From positions 1 to 42,265 of IMG/VR virus record IMGVR_UViG_3300027538_000185: DNA of 42,265 nucleotides. One strand, given 5' to 3'. A model generated the notes under the pieces. It saw only the letters and a program-made list of their open reading frames with translations, made no database searches and was not told the DNA's origin. Position numbers and translations under genes: made by a program. This document shows, one piece after another, positions 36,293 through 42,265 of this stretch (its first letter is position 1; each line of letters begins with the position of its first letter). This DNA is from a virus.

Positions 36293-37645
36293 ATGCCCGA
36301 CACGGTGACGGTCAGCGAGACCCAGGGTGCAAGGTACACCTGGGCGTCGGCTGGCTTTACATGGTCGAGCGCCAGCGCCGGAAAGAACTGGACCACAGCC
36401 TATCCGGCGGTCTACAACGTCGCTGTTGCGGTGACGCTGGCCTTCGTTGAGGCCACCGGCAGACAGTGGACCAAGCGCTCGAATGAAACGCTGGCCATTG
36501 CAGAAAAGCTCGCCAAGCAATTGATCCTGCGCGAATCAGAAGCAATCGGGTTTGGGGAAACCTACTCAGACCTGATCGCCTATGTACTTCGTTGGGTGGA
36601 AACGATGTCCTTTGGCGAGGCTCTCGGGAAAGCCAGTCGCAAGGAGGTGCAGGAGTCCTTCCAGGCATCCGACTACCTAACCCGAGTGCTGACAAAGACC
36701 GCTACGGAGAGCCTAGCCTTGAGCGACGTGATTCGCCAGGGAAGTGTTAAGCGCCTGGCCGAAAGCCTGCCGATGTCGGAGACGCCTCAACGGGGGGTGA
36801 CCAAGAACGCATTCGAAGCCTTCGAGCTAGGTGACGACTTGGATCGGCATATGACCAAGCGCATATCAGAGGCCGTCGCGTTTGCCGAGACCTATACCGA
36901 TCTGATCGCATTCATCTTGCGAATCAGCGAAGGCCTGGGCGTGAGCGACTTGGGGGCCAAGCAACTCCGAAAACCCTTCTCCGAGGCCTTTGGTACGACC
37001 GACAAGGCTGCAAGGCAGACGATCAAGCGCGTCGCTGAGGCGGTCGCTATAGGCGAGGCACTGGGACGCACGGTGGCCTATCGCCGAAATCTGACCGAGG
37101 GCTTTGCGGTATCGGATGCGCTGCGTAAAGCAATCAGACTGACCGCGCAGGAGGCCTTGGTGCTTGCCGAGCAGTACCGCAGGCATGCCAACGGCGTGAT
37201 CAGCGACATGATCGTTGGCAGCACCGAGATCACCGAGCTGGACTTTGCTGCCATCGTCGAGGCCGGTCACCCGCCCGGGTACACCGACTTCCGGGATTTC
37301 ATCCAAGGCGACTACACCTACCGTCGCGCGCTTTTCCGAGCCATTCTGAATTCGCGCAACTCTGACCGAGCCTTCATTGACGCATTGCGGGTGACGGTTG
37401 ACGTCCCTGACATCTTCGACCGAGGTACTGCCCAGATCACCGATCCAGCGGCCGGAGCCTCGATCTACTTCTCGCGCAGCTTTAGGGTCGCGCCTGAGGT
37501 GACCATGACCCACAAGGGGGGCTCCGCCGTGGCCATCCCTCGGCTGCTAGGCGCAGTTACCACGACTGGCTTCACCGCCGTCCTCGAAAACAGTTCCGGC
37601 TCCCGCGTGACCGGCTCCTTCACCTGGATTGCACAGGGGTACTAG
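36293..37645 (+). CDS. fibre protein with 13 tandem 18-20-residue repeats
   Basis: A 450-residue protein with three parts. After a 60-residue N-terminus, residues 61-300 contain about 13 repeats of 18-20 residues with the pattern E-[ASG]-x-x-[FLV]-[GSA]-[ED], for example ESLALSDVIRQGSVKRLA, EAVAFAETYTDLIAFIL and EGFAVSDALRKAIRLTA. The C-terminal 150 residues end in a beta-rich lectin-like domain (IYFSRSFRVAPEVTMT to FTWIAQGY). This suggests an extended shaft tipped by a binding domain. It directly abuts the Cys-rich fibre gene. I do not recognise a named family. Confidence 0.8.
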   Translation: MPDTVTVSETQGARYTWASAGFTWSSASAGKNWTTAYPAVYNVAVAVTLAFVEATGRQWTKRSNETLAIAEKLAKQLILRESEAIGFGETYSDLIAYVLRWVETMSFGEALGKASRKEVQESFQASDYLTRVLTKTATESLALSDVIRQGSVKRLAESLPMSETPQRGVTKNAFEAFELGDDLDRHMTKRISEAVAFAETYTDLIAFILRISEGLGVSDLGAKQLRKPFSEAFGTTDKAARQTIKRVAEAVAIGEALGRTVAYRRNLTEGFAVSDALRKAIRLTAQEALVLAEQYRRHANGVISDMIVGSTEITELDFAAIVEAGHPPGYTDFRDFIQGDYTYRRALFRAILNSRNSDRAFIDALRVTVDVPDIFDRGTAQITDPAAGASIYFSRSFRVAPEVTMTHKGGSAVAIPRLLGAVTTTGFTAVLENSSGSRVTGSFTWIAQGY

Positions 37646-38605
37646 ATGCAAAACTTCACCGATATACCGTCGTCCAGAACGCTGTCCGATTCTCTGATCG
37701 AGATTCTTAACAACGATAAGACGGCCATTTCATGCAACAGCGGCACCACCTTCCCGACGACCAACCTTCAGATCGGGATGCTGTGCTACCGCACTGACCA
37801 GTTGAAGCTCTACCAGTTGATCGGGACCAACCCGGATAACTGGCGCTTCATCATGGATTTGGCAAGCGGCATTGATACGCAGTTCGCAGCCAAGCTCAAT
37901 GCCTCGAGCTACACGGCAGCCGATGTTCTGGCGAAGTTGCTGACAGTGGATGGTGCAGGTACTGGACTGGATGCCGACCTGCTCGATGGTCAGCATGCGA
38001 GCGCTTTTGCTGCGAGCACACACAACCACAACGCCGCCTATCTCGGCATCAGCGCCAAGGCCGCCGATGCTGACAAGCTCGATGGCTATGACTCCACCGC
38101 GTTTGTGAGGTCGGTCAACGGTGCCGGGCCTGATGCCGCTGGCAATGCGACGGTCAACATTGACCTGTCGAGCCGGGTCGCAAAGACCGGCGACACGATG
38201 ACGGGGAATCTGACGATTCAGAACACCGCCCCAACTATCAATATGCAGGACACGGACAACGTGACCCGCTATCTGCATGTCAACAGCAACCTGATGGGCT
38301 TTTTAAAGTCCGATGGCAACTGGGACATGTACATGAACAACAGTGGATCTATGTGGACCGCGAACTACGGGTGGTTGCATGACTACTTTTTCAGCACCAT
38401 CGCCAACTGTTTTGTTGGCAACTGCCCGGGTAATACAGGCAACTGCAGCCCGGTGGGCAACAACGCAACATCCGTAGTTTCTAACTGCGGCAGCGCATCT
38501 TTTGTGCGCGATGAGCTGGTGGACAACGGCAGCCAGATTTCTGTCCGAAGAACACAGTACAACTTCAACTGCAATTGCAACTGTGCTTGCGACTGCTGCT
38601 GCTGA
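37646..38605 (+). CDS. tail-fibre-like protein with Cys/Asn-rich C-terminus
   Basis: A 319-residue fibre protein starting directly after the repeat protein's stop. The middle has tail-fibre repeats (LDADLLDGQHASAFAAS, DADKLDGYDSTAF) and an HNHN stretch. The C-terminal 68 residues hold 11 cysteines at 255, 260, 267, 281, 309, 311, 313, 315, 317, 318 and 319; seven are preceded by Asn. The protein ends NFNCNCNCACDCCC. Such a tail is unlike a structural fibre and resembles a RiPP core or a metal-binding tail. Its stop overlaps a start (TGATG) of the next gene, which is followed by an oxygenase and a radical SAM enzyme. It is the best candidate substrate of those enzymes; this is inference. Confidence 0.85.
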   Translation: MQNFTDIPSSRTLSDSLIEILNNDKTAISCNSGTTFPTTNLQIGMLCYRTDQLKLYQLIGTNPDNWRFIMDLASGIDTQFAAKLNASSYTAADVLAKLLTVDGAGTGLDADLLDGQHASAFAASTHNHNAAYLGISAKAADADKLDGYDSTAFVRSVNGAGPDAAGNATVNIDLSSRVAKTGDTMTGNLTIQNTAPTINMQDTDNVTRYLHVNSNLMGFLKSDGNWDMYMNNSGSMWTANYGWLHDYFFSTIANCFVGNCPGNTGNCSPVGNNATSVVSNCGSASFVRDELVDNGSQISVRRTQYNFNCNCNCACDCCC

Positions 38606-38616
38606 TGGGGGCGACC

Positions 38617-39396
38617 ATGAAAGTCATTGCAGTACGCAACCCGCTTCTTCATCCCTATGCATTCCATCAAGTCTCCATCTCGCGCGAGTTGCAAAGCAGG
38701 TCGTTGATCGTTCGATACCGGTTGGCCAGAACAAATCATGCTGAAGAGGATCCTGTCTTTGATGCAGAAGAACAGGAGGTGCGGGTCAATCTGGCAGCGC
38801 TCAGAAACCGCCCCGACTGGTGCGACCACCAGTGCTATTTCGTGTCGCTCAAGGATGGGCGTTTGGGGCCGCTTTTCTCCCTCTTTGTGGCTACGCTTCC
38901 TGCCCGTCTTGCTGCAACTGAGTTTGCAACGATGTCGCAGCAGAGTTTGATTCTGGGAATCAATGTGCAGTTTGCCGACGCCACGGACGACGAGCTGTTT
39001 CTGACCGTCAACATGAACCAGCGATGCCGCGACGCTGATATCTCAGTTGACGGTGATTTGGCTCTTGAGTGGAGCCAGGCGGCTTCAAGCGGAACACACA
39101 GAACCTTATTGCTGCCGCACCTGCGCTTGTCGGCTCCGTCAACCATCGCAGCCGATGGCCAGGCAACGATCACTATTCAGCTTGAGGACGCTGCTGAACA
39201 CCCGATTGAAAGGCAGGCAACCGTCTATCTGGAAGCGGTCTCAGGTGTATTACCTCGGGCCAGGGTCACCACCATTCAGGGCACTGCCGCCGTCCCTGTA
39301 TTTGCCACTGGTTTGAGCCCAGGTGAGCAGGTTCGCATCAAAGCAGGCTGGAAGTACTTTCCCGGCGTGGACGACATCACGATTGAGGTTGTCTGA
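38617..39396 (+). CDS. Ig-like-domain protein of the fibre operon
   Basis: A 259-residue protein without a recognised enzyme motif. The last 85 residues look like a bacterial Ig-like (Big_1/invasin) domain: LSAPSTIAADGQATITIQLED, ATVYLEAVSGVL and VRIKAGWKYFPGVDDITIEV. The N-terminal part is beta-rich, with RPDWCDHQCYFVSL and VNMNQRCRDADIS. ATG 38617 follows a GGGGG stretch; an in-frame ATG 38605 overlaps the fibre stop and could also be used. It may attach to the fibre or present it to the modifying enzymes. Its stop overlaps the next start as TGATG. Confidence 0.75.
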   Translation: MKVIAVRNPLLHPYAFHQVSISRELQSRSLIVRYRLARTNHAEEDPVFDAEEQEVRVNLAALRNRPDWCDHQCYFVSLKDGRLGPLFSLFVATLPARLAATEFATMSQQSLILGINVQFADATDDELFLTVNMNQRCRDADISVDGDLALEWSQAASSGTHRTLLLPHLRLSAPSTIAADGQATITIQLEDAAEHPIERQATVYLEAVSGVLPRARVTTIQGTAAVPVFATGLSPGEQVRIKAGWKYFPGVDDITIEVV

Positions 39397-39953
39397 TGCT
39401 CCAAGCGCTGTTTGCGGTCCCAGTCCTCGTAACAGAACTGGGCATATCTGAACGCGAACGCAGCGTTCTCTGCGAGTGTGCCCTGGCCGCATACCGGGCC
39501 AACAACACGAACGGGAAACCCTGGTCTAGAGCTAACCGGGAGTCTCTGGCAGTCCAAGAGCCGGTTTTTGAGGCTCTCTTTGCCATGGTCGCTAGGGCGG
39601 CAGAAGTTGCATTTGGGGTCCGTGTCGTATCCATCACCGGTCGCGAACTGGTTCAGTTTGATGGCGATTTTGTCCCTCCGCATGTTGAGCCATCTATGCT
39701 GTCTGCCATCTACTGGATAGATGCCGCAGCTGAACCCAAGCATGCGTGTGGGGATCACAACGGATCGCTGGTCCTTCAAAGCCCAGTGGGCCCCTTTGGC
39801 ACCAAGGTACTGCCAACTGAGGAGAGGGTTCGGTTCATCGATCCGATGCCTGATCGCCTACTGGTTTTTCCAAGCCATCTGGTGCACTTTGGCCACGTCT
39901 ACCGTGCGCCGACACCAAGCGTCGAGGTTCACTTCGAAATGGAGATTGCGTGA
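39396..39953 (+). CDS. 2-oxoglutarate/Fe(II) oxygenase-like protein
   Basis: A 185-residue protein with the core of the 2OG-Fe(II) oxygenase fold (PF13759-like). The proximal ligands are H96-x-E98 in PPHVEPSMLSAIYWID, the distal histidine is within FPSHLVHFGHVY (H161, H164 or H167), and R170 or a later basic residue could bind 2-oxoglutarate. GSLVLQSP is the conserved strand between them. Typical substrates of relatives are amino-acid side chains such as Pro, Asp or Asn. The setting between a Cys/Asn-rich fibre and a radical SAM enzyme suggests side-chain hydroxylation of the fibre. The ligand set H-x-E is less common than H-x-D, so activity needs proof. Confidence 0.75.
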   Translation: MLQALFAVPVLVTELGISERERSVLCECALAAYRANNTNGKPWSRANRESLAVQEPVFEALFAMVARAAEVAFGVRVVSITGRELVQFDGDFVPPHVEPSMLSAIYWIDAAAEPKHACGDHNGSLVLQSPVGPFGTKVLPTEERVRFIDPMPDRLLVFPSHLVHFGHVYRAPTPSVEVHFEMEIA

Positions 39954-39979
39954 TGCGCGCAGTCAATTTCTACCAATAG
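39953..39979 (+). CDS. eight-codon mini-ORF (low confidence)
   Basis: ATG 39953 overlaps the oxygenase stop (TGATG) and reads MRAVNFYQ before TAG at 39977-39979. The radical SAM start lies seven bases later. It may only keep ribosomes near the next start, or be chance. Confidence 0.2.
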   Translation: MRAVNFYQ

Positions 39980-39985
39980 GAAACC

Positions 39986-41353
39986 ATGAGTACTTTTGTC
40001 ATTCATACCGTCATTCCGGGCGGACCAGCTGGTCCAACCCTCCGATACGACAACCAGACCTCGGAACTCACCAACCTGCAAACCGGGCAGCCGGTTGTGA
40101 GGTCCTTTGCGGCCGTCCAGCCCGCAAGTCAACCTTTCGCCACCAGCAAAGACACCCCGGCTCGAAAAGATTCGCCTCGGGTCTTGAAGATCTCTCTTGG
40201 CCTGTCATGCAATTACGAGTGTGAGTACTGTTCTCAGCGCTTTGTGCCACGCGCGGCTGAGACGAATCCTGCTGAAGTTCACGCCTTCGTTGCGGGGCTA
40301 GATGGATGGGTGACCGTGCCGCCAGAGCGTATTGAGTTCTGGGGCGGGGAGCCCCTGGTTTACACCAAGACCCTGCGTCCGCTCGCTAACGCCCTTCGTC
40401 GTAAGTATCCAGACGCTGGCTTTTCAGTGATCACCAACGGATCACTGCTGAACGCCGACATCAATCAATGGCTGGATGACATGGGCTTTAGTGTTGGCAT
40501 CTCTCACGATGGTCCGGGGCAGCATGTGCGAGGGCCTGATCCACTTGATGACCCTGAAAAGCGCGCAGCGATATTGGATCTTTATCGGCGACTCGCACCG
40601 AAGAGGCGTGTGAGCTTCAATGCAATGCTCAACCGCGCAAACATCTCCAGGGCCGCGATTCAGCAGTTCTTCACCGATCTGACCGGAGACCTGGACGTCA
40701 TGATCGCCGAGGGCGCATTTGTTGATGCTTACGACCCGGGTGGCTTGGCGCTGTCTCTGCCTTCTGATGAAGCGCAAGCATTTCGTCGGACGGCCTTCCA
40801 GGAGATCCGTCAGGGCAAGGCGGACAGGGTTTCCGGTGCAAGGGATCGGGTTGCCTCCTTCGTTAACTCCATCCGCCTACAACGTCCTGCATCCAGTGTG
40901 GCGCAAAAGTGTGGCATGGATCACACCGATTCGATAGCGGTTGATCTTCGCGGCAATGTGCTGACCTGCCAAAACGTTAGCGCTCAGTCAATCGCTCCAA
41001 ATGGCGAGAGTCACCGAATTGGACATGTCAGCGATCTTGCGTCGGTGGCGCTGCGCACCTCAACGCATTGGTCCAAGCGCGAAGACTGTCCAAAGTGCCC
41101 TGTGCTTCACATCTGCAAAGGGGCATGCATGTTCTTGGAAGGGTCGCTTTGGGAGGCGTCCTGCAATAACGCGTACTCAGATGCGTTGCCGATCTTTGCT
41201 GCGGGGATCGAATTTCTGAGTGGGCTGGTGCCGGTCTACATAGAAGGCGACCTACCTGAACTCCGAAAGGACGTTTTCGGATTTTCTGAGCAGGTGAAAC
41301 CATATCGGGAAAGACCGCCTAGGGTTTTTCCGATCCCGGTCGTCGCAGCCTGA
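39986..41353 (+). CDS. radical SAM/SPASM peptide-modifying enzyme
   Basis: A 455-residue radical SAM enzyme. The [4Fe-4S] motif CNYECEYC has C75, C79 and C82; WGGEPL (119-124) and the ITNGSL strand (149-154) follow. The C-terminal SPASM domain has C309, C328 (in RGNVLTC), then C368-x2-C371-x5-C377-x3-C381 and C393, a full seven-Cys set for two auxiliary clusters. Family members form thioether or C-C cross-links, or oxidise Cys/Ser to formylglycine, in protein substrates. The first 60 residues are extra; I see no clear RRE domain. ATG 39986 follows AGGAAA. The Cys-rich fibre encoded 1.4 kb upstream is the obvious substrate candidate. Confidence 0.93.
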   Translation: MSTFVIHTVIPGGPAGPTLRYDNQTSELTNLQTGQPVVRSFAAVQPASQPFATSKDTPARKDSPRVLKISLGLSCNYECEYCSQRFVPRAAETNPAEVHAFVAGLDGWVTVPPERIEFWGGEPLVYTKTLRPLANALRRKYPDAGFSVITNGSLLNADINQWLDDMGFSVGISHDGPGQHVRGPDPLDDPEKRAAILDLYRRLAPKRRVSFNAMLNRANISRAAIQQFFTDLTGDLDVMIAEGAFVDAYDPGGLALSLPSDEAQAFRRTAFQEIRQGKADRVSGARDRVASFVNSIRLQRPASSVAQKCGMDHTDSIAVDLRGNVLTCQNVSAQSIAPNGESHRIGHVSDLASVALRTSTHWSKREDCPKCPVLHICKGACMFLEGSLWEASCNNAYSDALPIFAAGIEFLSGLVPVYIEGDLPELRKDVFGFSEQVKPYRERPPRVFPIPVVAA

Positions 41354-41420: not shown

Positions 41421-41804
41421 ATGCCAGAACCTACAAGCAGTGGGGTCGCCGGGGCAGCGGTGGCCTACAAAGCATTTGGTGGAGCCGCCGCAGCGGCTGC
41501 CAGCGGAGCTACCCTTGCTGCAGTGGTGGTCATGTTGATGACGCCACCTCGCAACAAACGGGAGTGGGCCGTTGGACTGATCAGTACCGTTGTGTCCAGC
41601 ATCGGCGGTGGCGCCATGACCGTCGAGCACTTTGGACTTCACCATTGGGCCTTCTCAACCATGGGTCTGTGCGCCCTGGGTGGGTTGATCTTTGCATGTG
41701 GTCTACCGGGTTGGGCCTTGGTTCGCTGGACGTTTGCCTTCATCGATAACCGCCGTGACGACTCAATCGACCAAGTGGCCAAAGACGTGAAGGAGCTACT
41801 GTGA
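41421..41804 (+). CDS. holin-like membrane protein
   Basis: A 127-residue protein with three hydrophobic segments: residues 19-40 (GGAAAAAASGATLAAVVVML), about 48-64, and 77-101 (FSTMGLCALGGLIFACGLPG). A charged C-terminus follows (FIDNRRDDSIDQVAKDVKELL is at about 107-127). Size, topology and position directly before an endolysin fit a class I type holin that forms holes in the inner membrane to release the endolysin. The stop overlaps the endolysin GTG start. Confidence 0.8.
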   Translation: MPEPTSSGVAGAAVAYKAFGGAAAAAASGATLAAVVVMLMTPPRNKREWAVGLISTVVSSIGGGAMTVEHFGLHHWAFSTMGLCALGGLIFACGLPGWALVRWTFAFIDNRRDDSIDQVAKDVKELL

Positions 41805-42265
41805 ATCCCAGTGAATTCATCATGCGGCTCACCAAGGCCGCCGTATCGTCAGCCAAAACCTCTGGTGTTCCTGCCAGCATCACGATCGCACAAGCTGCTC
41901 TTGAATCCGCTTGGGGGGAGTCTGGTCTGGCCAGGAATGGCAACAACCTTTTTGGGATCAAGGCTGACAGCCGTTGGAGGGGGGAGACTTTGACTCTCCC
42001 AACCAAGGAATTCATCAAAGGGCAATGGGTGGTTGTACCTGCCAAGTGGCGCAAATACGAAAGCTGGCAAGCCAGCATTGATGACCACGCCGCGTTTCTG
42101 AGGCGCAACCCCCGCTACAAAGATTGCTTTGCTTGCACCACTGCGCAGGCTTTTGCCAAGGCGCTATCGCAGGCGGGTTATGCGACCGATCCCGCTTATT
42201 CGGACAAGGTCATTGGTCTGATCAAACAGCACAATCTGCTGGCCTTGGACGGAGAAGCTCCATGA
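41801..42265 (+). CDS. endolysin, FlgJ-like N-acetylglucosaminidase (GH73)
   Basis: A 154-residue glucosaminidase. The catalytic glutamate is E35 in AQAALESAWGESGLAR, followed by GNNLFGIKADSRW, the glucosaminidase signature seen in FlgJ. The C-terminal part has RKYESWQASIDDHAAFLRRN and ALSQAGYATDPAYSDKVIGLI. It has no signal peptide, so release needs the holin. It starts at GTG 41801 in the holin stop and ends with TGA at 42263-42265; an ATG at 42262 suggests that a further gene follows beyond the window. Confidence 0.92.
   Translation: MNPSEFIMRLTKAAVSSAKTSGVPASITIAQAALESAWGESGLARNGNNLFGIKADSRWRGETLTLPTKEFIKGQWVVVPAKWRKYESWQASIDDHAAFLRRNPRYKDCFACTTAQAFAKALSQAGYATDPAYSDKVIGLIKQHNLLALDGEAP

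Follow-up and report, generated by a model that had tools for sequence, protein, structure and literature searches.

Why does a phage carry a radical S-adenosylmethionine (SAM) gene between its tail fibres and its lysis genes? The question is raised by IMG/VR virus record IMGVR_UViG_3300027538_000185, whose complete 42,265 bases form the stretch analysed here (the window), and in particular by four plus-strand open reading frames (ORFs) at positions 37646 to 41353. Since the window holds integrase, terminase, portal, head protease, capsid, tape measure and gpJ-like genes, its source is most likely a temperate siphovirus. An identical radical SAM gene (100% identity) occurs in a contig that was assigned to a Limnohabitans metagenome-assembled genome (MAG).

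The four ORFs (37646-38605, 38605-39396, 39396-39953 and 39986-41353) encode, in order, the tail fibre P0001 (319 amino acids, aa), an immunoglobulin (Ig)-domain protein P0002 (263 aa), a 2-oxoglutarate (2OG)-Fe(II) oxygenase-like protein P0003 (185 aa) and the radical SAM/SPASM enzyme P0004 (455 aa). They follow a fibre gene (36293-37645) and precede a small gene (41421-41804) and an endolysin gene. The first-pass annotation had described four tightly ordered genes between tail fibres and lysis genes, and both the coordinates and the flanking genes agree with this. TGATG overlaps are seen at the first two junctions, as it had reported, and the third is a 32-nt gap. The Cys/Asn-rich end that it had noticed in the first gene corresponds to the last 12 residues of P0001, NCNCNCACDCCC (38567-38602); tails of the same kind are found in 150 deduplicated systems. 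We propose, from sequence comparison, that P0004 is probably a dedicated maturase of this C-terminal Asn-Cys tail, most likely making a thioether ladder in it that might stiffen the fibre tip.

Asn-Cys tails and radical SAM genes are linked in both directions

We approached the linkage first from the enzyme. The enzyme-led set comprised 114 loci, namely the best 80 of 407 IMG/VR relatives, 31 genome-contig loci, the window and the Achromobacter phages JWF (L002) and 2-1 (L003), and includes near-duplicates (the window, L006 and L086 are near-identical). A fibre with an (NC)n tail lies upstream in 92 of the 93 loci that have at least 3.5 kb of upstream DNA, near-duplicates included. A regular expression for a C-terminal (NC)n ORF was positive in 83 of the 93, with the tail 0.5 to 5.4 kb from the enzyme. 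Where it failed, the tail is present and then followed by a Hint-like segment in L002, L047, L061 and L113 (by eye), is shorter or irregular in L028 and L093 (by eye), or is seen in the DNA beyond the Ig gene in L038, L050 and L063 (YNCNCNCACTCK, YNCNCNCACTCK and TNCNCNCNCNCGK, respectively). The first-pass annotation had held that radical SAM relatives without any Cys-rich fibre would speak against its idea; one exception in 93 leaves that idea standing.

Conversely, we searched IMG/VR DNA with two tail patterns that are blind to the enzyme, NCNCNC[NDTA]C (at least 120 stretches) and NCNCDCNC (57 stretches). Among the matches listed, to which all tail-led counts refer, this gave 169 loci (L117-L285) with 173 ORFs of at least 25 aa containing the run. 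ORFs shorter than 60 aa (n=15) were dropped and the remaining 158 reduced to 100 distinct ones, 35 of which have too little downstream DNA. The enzyme was scored as an ORF of more than 150 aa with CxxxCxxC...GGE within 3.5 kb. For the distinct ORFs with the run no more than 14 residues from the stop and at least 3.5 kb of downstream DNA, a radical SAM ORF lies downstream on the same strand in 53 out of 53. In the control directions, an enzyme is found on the opposite strand in 0 of 53 and upstream in 1 of 45.

Both searches together yielded 196 pairs of tail and enzyme, or 150 systems after deduplication by sequence context; for a tail to be pooled, three or more XC units including N or D were required. 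By single linkage, the system enzymes group into 97 clusters at 90% identity, 53 at 70% and 21 at 50%. Identity to P0004 falls to 23-27%, over part of their length, in a few of them (L228, L135, L187 and L129). The fibre bodies fall into 15 single-linkage families, the largest holding 127 of the 150. Six bacterial genomes, picked because they had yielded loci (five Limnohabitans isolates, among them Rim28, 2KL-1, II-B4 and 15K, and one Burkholderia), contain one uninterrupted enzyme gene each at E <= 1e-40.

The next called gene begins -37 to +19 nt from the stop of the tail gene in 142 of the 150 systems. Between tail gene and enzyme there are 0 to 6 called genes of at least 70 aa, and none in eight systems. 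Of the 150 systems, 109 have a relative of the Ig protein in this interval, 89 one of the oxygenase, 77 both and 17 a member of a JWF gp029-like family. With intervening genes ranging from 0 to 6, the four-gene cassette was rejected as a conserved unit. As judged from gene content, the conserved unit is the fibre tail plus the radical SAM enzyme, the Ig protein and the oxygenase being common but dispensable. The earlier suggestion of a dedicated radical SAM/SPASM enzyme for a Cys-rich virion fibre is thus strongly backed by the near-exclusive linkage in both directions (92/93 and 53/53), seen in phages that differ widely, without the cassette in which it had been framed. On this gene linkage, the enzyme very probably acts on the tail.

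The tail is conserved as protein at the end of varied fibre bodies

P0001 (37646-38605) matches PHROG tail fibre families (best 5.7e-10) and aligns with the fibres of JWF and 2-1 at 36-41% identity; a Pfam search of P0001 gave no match, and so no Hint family. Tail ORFs in the 150 systems span 64-631 aa, stop to stop. Among the PHROG families that 39 fibre representatives match most often (at most 6 of 39 for each family), tail fibre and collagen-like minor tail families prevail; some others are unnamed and one family is labelled 'DNA polymerase'. With Pfam, the representatives also show collagen repeats, Hint domains (Hom_end_hint in four representatives, Vint in four), a shufflon N-terminus and a carbohydrate-binding module. 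As the candidate substrate is a 319-aa fibre, the short leader-core precursor beside the enzyme that marks a ribosomally synthesised and post-translationally modified peptide (RiPP) is not seen here.

Of the 665 residues that stand before a Cys in the 121 unique tail contexts, 447 are N, 70 are D, 56 are A and 55 are C, the N and D shares being partly built in because the search favoured these residues. The first Cys of the tail is preceded by Asn in 115 of the 121 contexts, and the median number of Cys is five. We also counted at least four Cys within the last 14 residues in 77 of 3073 distinct ORF ends (ORFs of at least 150 aa in any frame of the fetched loci, most of which were chosen for holding such systems); only eight of these 77 lack [NDAS]C[NDASTQ]C. 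Several synonymous DNA versions exist for one and the same tail peptide; it is therefore maintained at the protein level and not as a DNA repeat.

Hint domains self-cleave. A Hint-like segment starting at Cys follows the tail in 10 of the 121 contexts (for example NCNCDCNCNCSCFPAGT in JWF). If it does self-cleave, the mature fibre, too, would end in a tail of this kind, in support of the tail being the functional C-terminus.

Several tail genes can precede one enzyme, three in L177, L192, L204 and L216 and two in L148. We also noticed a variant in L134, L239 and L278, in which an internal NC run is followed by at least 25 further residues and the radical SAM gene lies upstream, not downstream.

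P0004 is a SPASM enzyme of its own family

P0004 (39986-41353) matches the PHROG 1802 profile at 2.9e-59 (202 bits, residues 58-410) and exceeds the cut-offs of Pfam Radical_SAM (30.6 against 29.5 bits) and of the TIGR04085 SPASM model (32.9 against 27 bits). The CxxxCxxC motif (C75, C79 and C82; 40208-40231) and the complete seven-Cys SPASM domain (C309, C328, C368, C371, C377, C381 and C393; 40910-41164) that had been read from the sequence at first pass are both there, and all ten Cys are invariant when P0004 is aligned with 60 relatives that share 34-83% identity (61 sequences in total). A regular expression for the seven SPASM Cys is satisfied by 140 of the 150 system enzymes. Several of the other ten are cut by contig ends and one is apparently frame-disrupted; S080, S082 and S112 are distant and show another or no such pattern.

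The model of P0004 has a predicted local distance difference test (pLDDT) score of 91.6, and its nearest solved structure is CteB, a maturase that forms thioethers (Foldseek E 4.6e-13; VIA Z 24.3, root-mean-square deviation 4.5 over 360 residues). A PDB profile search with a 63-row alignment that includes L002 and L003 ranks TigE (9.6e-21) before anSME (8.3e-15) and CteB (2.3e-13). Among NCBIfam models, that of the PapB ranthipeptide maturase (NF047865) matches 61 of the 61 sequences at 1e-10 or better, that of QhpD 46 of 61 at 1e-10 and that of SCIFF eight of 61. Among the best 25 of 44 matches listed, all equivalog scores of P0004 are far under their cut-offs, including QhpD (41.6 against 453 bits) and sulfatase_rSAM (36 against 349 bits). 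Because of these scores and the closeness of CteB, P0004 is, on its predicted structure, a SPASM maturase of its own family, structurally nearest to a thioether former. We could not rank the chemistry of P0004 from the fold alone, as only about 5 Z units separate CteB, ChlB, anSME and TigE.

A proposed thioether ladder and its alternatives

Three known systems offer a chemical precedent. The PapB and CteB (SCIFF) ranthipeptide maturases share with P0004 the radical SAM and seven-Cys SPASM domains and a Cys-rich substrate encoded next door; unlike the phage fibre with a C-terminal motif proposed here, their substrate is a short leader-core peptide, and P0004 scores below their cut-off. PapB accepts Cys-Xn-Asp for n=0-6 and makes nested links of -2 Da each (PMC9413430). 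The ranthipeptide NxxcA has Cys23 joined to Asn20, an acceptor three residues before the donor Cys (PMC8326336), and this spacing recurs in (NC)n; NxxcA differs in carrying a single Cys-Asn C-beta thioether in a small peptide, whereas the tails have a median of five Cys on a virion protein. QhpD, the quinohemoprotein amine dehydrogenase maturase, is a radical SAM enzyme outside the RiPPs that makes Cys-Asp/Glu thioethers, and Cys is linked to Asp in freyrasin as well (PMC8326336); QhpD is bacterial, not of phage, and has another substrate. A C-beta thioether ladder from Asn, Asp or Ala to Cys is chemically reasonable given the NxxcA spacing, the Cys-Asp links of QhpD and freyrasin and the tolerance of PapB.

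According to the mechanism that we propose, P0004 would work on the tail in the host cytoplasm while the phage is being assembled. It would abstract hydrogen from Asn, Asp or Ala and bond the carbon concerned to the sulfur of a Cys, in the manner of ranthipeptides and QhpD, so that a ladder of short C-beta thioether rings forms at -2 Da per link. The rings may then make the distal tip of the fibre trimer stiffer or hold it together as staples, or form a protease-proof binding knob. In fibres with a Hint domain behind the tail, the same tail would become the exposed C-terminus on self-cleavage. The Ig protein could be an accessory virion or scaffold part, and the 2OG oxygenase might add a further hydroxylation. 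The parts of this proposal differ in strength. We give a thioether product an even chance, the bond type being taken by analogy from relatives to which P0004 scores below the family cut-offs. That the modified tail is a stabilised receptor-binding tip is a guess, and one that we hold only tentatively.

Several observations weigh against this reading. L011, a 7-kb contig, has no (NC)n fibre, and an NlpC/P60-like gene (by eye) precedes its oxygenase. Of the 21 enzyme loci with less than 3.5 kb upstream, four have a tail and 17 (12-2721 nt upstream) have none. From the tail side, an enzyme lies downstream in only six of 12 ORFs in which more than 14 residues follow the run; as for the six misses, L278 has its enzyme upstream and L196, L220, L225 and L244 are seemingly non-coding frames, leaving L124, a 482-aa ORF with an internal run, unexplained. 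An enzyme was nearby for one of the 15 dropped short ORFs and absent for 14, most of these ORFs being odd-looking, seemingly non-coding frames, and the 53 tail-led cases are distinct by sequence, not phylogenetically independent lineages. The bond type meets further objections. CteB is closely trailed in VIA Z by ChlB (21.3), anSMEcpe (20.6) and TigE (19.1); models for other chemistry or targets also match widely, viperin in 58, geopeptide maturase in 57 and sulfatase maturase in 30 of the 61 sequences; and P0004 is far below the PapB equivalog cut-off (56.5 against 340 bits). With equivalog scores so far below cut-off, the chemistry is therefore not readable from homology. Counts of N-x-x-C do not add independent evidence because overlapping N-x-x-C is automatic in (NC)n. 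Where a RiPP recognition element would be sought, residues 1-58 of P0004 are modelled as three strands and coil with no helices, although CteB aligns from residue 1.

The enzyme may act on the tail by other chemistry, such as formylglycine formation (anSME-like), a C-alpha thioether, a C-C cyclophane, epimerisation or the making of a metal-binding or adhesive tip, and we regard this as possible, though on the doubtful side. The proximity of anSMEcpe (Z 20.6; profile E 8.3e-15) and the annotation of the JWF gene in one record as an anaerobic sulfatase-maturating enzyme point that way, and dense CxC ladders could also bind metal ions. Sulfatase substrates carry the motif C-x-P/A-x-R, of which we find none in P0001 (read by eye). 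Moreover, the PapB and QhpD models match more of the aligned sequences (61 and 46 of 61) than that of the sulfatase maturase (30 of 61), and P0004 scores 36 bits with sulfatase_rSAM against a cut-off of 349. The sulfatase-maturase reading was rejected on the missing motif and the low model score.

It seems improbable that the NC tail serves simply for disulfides or metal binding at the tip while the enzyme modifies another virion protein of the block, such as the Ig protein. The latter is encoded beside the fibre, and 109 of 150 systems have a relative of it in the interval before the enzyme, but no Ig relative is found in 41 of 150 by this clustering, eight have no gene of at least 70 aa in between, and the enzyme is the partner in every counted tail-led case (53/53). 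We give hardly any credence to the radical SAM gene being metabolic or defence cargo inserted after the tail fibres. The region between tail and lysis genes, where the locus sits, is a usual site for cargo. Phage radical SAM genes have also been read as metabolic, in Campylobacter phages (PMC2853527), but two-way exclusivity, fixed order and strand, and a common tail on unlinked fibre families do not fit random cargo, and the metabolic reading was rejected on the two-way linkage.

The established products of radical SAM/SPASM enzymes are peptide natural products and some enzyme cofactors. That a SPASM enzyme matures a Cys-rich substrate is known, and a virion fibre tip as the substrate is not described as far as we searched: in the titles and abstract openings listed by an open-access literature search, with most subscription papers and bioRxiv outside it, we found no radical SAM enzyme acting on a phage fibre and no (NC)n tails. 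If our reading is true, the role of these enzymes would extend to virion assembly via viral structural proteins, and the mature tips of many fibres would differ from their gene sequence, with a bearing on structure prediction, phage therapy and host-range models. The occurrence of (NC)n tails on unlinked fibre bodies also suggests a portable tag, which might serve in the enzymatic stapling of proteins. Our reading would further explain the radical SAM genes of many phages, a puzzle noted for Campylobacter phages in 2010 (PMC2853527), where these genes are called highly unusual and read as metabolic. More speculatively, tailed phages of many lineages might share radical SAM/SPASM virion maturation, in which dedicated enzymes cap the receptor-binding tip with a polycyclic thioether made from an (Asn-Cys)n tail, and the Cys-repeat proteins near radical SAM genes of cultured Salmonella, Erwinia and Campylobacter phages might be convergent. 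This would define a class of post-translationally installed receptor-binding chemistry, invisible to host-range prediction from genes; we rate this combined idea as uncertain and rather doubtful.

Intervening and flanking genes

The Ig domain proposed at first pass for P0002 (38605-39396, with a TGATG overlap at both ends) is backed by structure more than by profile: Pfam Big_1 scores 16 bits, under its cut-off of 34.9, whereas in a confident model (pLDDT 96.3) residues 170-263, behind a beta-rich N-terminal part, adopt an intimin/Big_1-type Ig fold. A fold search with residues 170-263 gave Z up to 13.1, and 11.2 for the phage Chi neck protein; a PDB profile search with the Ig-protein family found no relative.

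P0003 (39396-39953) matches PHROG 81 at 1.3e-7 and stays below the gathering cut-off of Pfam PF13759 (18 against 27 bits). The 2OG-Fe(II) oxygenase motifs ascribed to it are present as H96-x-E98 and the distal H164; H96 and H164 are invariant in 33 aligned sequences, and HxH replaces HxE in some relatives. PDB profile matches are 3bvc (1.2e-6) and, weakly, the PKHD hydroxylase 3dkq (0.0033).

Other intervening genes were seen in a few loci. L028 and L046 have extended cassettes of about 4 kb between the Ig and radical SAM genes, with several extra genes (clusters c5, c11 and c12) that include a fatty-acid-desaturase-like His-box protein (by eye) and further shared families. In L110 (a Phaeospirillum MAG) and L113 (a Magnetospirillum MAG), a second, different radical SAM gene (c16) lies between an Ig-type protein and the P0004-type enzyme, the main enzyme of L113 being apparently frame-disrupted.

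Upstream of the block, the plus-strand tail fibre gene P0005 (36293-37645) shows a weakly H-type lectin- or gp53-like C-terminus (H_lectin, 20 against 24 bits), and consists largely of repeated short 'ESLALSD...'-type segments (by eye). A P0005-like C-terminus also stands directly upstream of the NC-tail fibre in JWF and 2-1 (L002:5310-5783 and L003:3324-3791; by eye). Downstream, on the same strand, a small membrane-type protein of PHROG 1024 (function unknown; 41421-41804), holin-like by appearance only, directly precedes the endolysin (41801-42265; PHROG 3513 at 1.9e-59).

Related arrangements in other phages

P0004 is in one family with the PHROG 1802 proteins of JWF and 2-1, which share 47-49% identity with it and the same order after an NC-tail fibre. 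They differ in having a Hint domain after the fibre tail, another intervening gene (c2) and no oxygenase in between. The JWF gene is annotated either as 'anaerobic sulfatase-maturating enzyme' or as 'radical SAM domain-containing protein'.

Salmonella phage SPN3US (L004:3094-3907) and Erwinia phage Asesino (L005:3130-3929) each have twin radical SAM genes and, roughly 1.2-1.3 kb upstream of these and separated from them by one gene, small ORFs in which Ser/Gly-Cys is repeated at length (CSxxCSGSCSA...). The annotated gene SPN3US gp100 overlaps one such repeat ORF in a different frame. By sequence, this looks like a parallel arrangement of Cys repeat and radical SAM gene. In Campylobacter phage CP220, the 534-aa gp140 (L286:3137-4762) contains (NYCTCDC)n repeats that coincide with annotated 21-bp repeats; the gene beside it is annotated as both an RNA ligase and a tail fibre attachment catalyst, and the radical SAM gene gp136 follows about 2.2 kb downstream. 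The enzymes of SPN3US, Asesino and CP220 match P0004 or its relatives weakly, and these cases stand outside all linkage counts.

We also left out of all counts the human faecal 'Bacteriophage sp.' records, which give distant enzyme matches. The three that we examined (L287, L288 and L289; MT835472, MT836984 and MT835702) carry, ahead of the radical SAM gene, a short ORF whose end resembles KGGCGECQTSCQSACKTSCTVGNQTCEHCK. We take this ORF to resemble a SCIFF precursor, and for this reason the three records are probably bacterial DNA.

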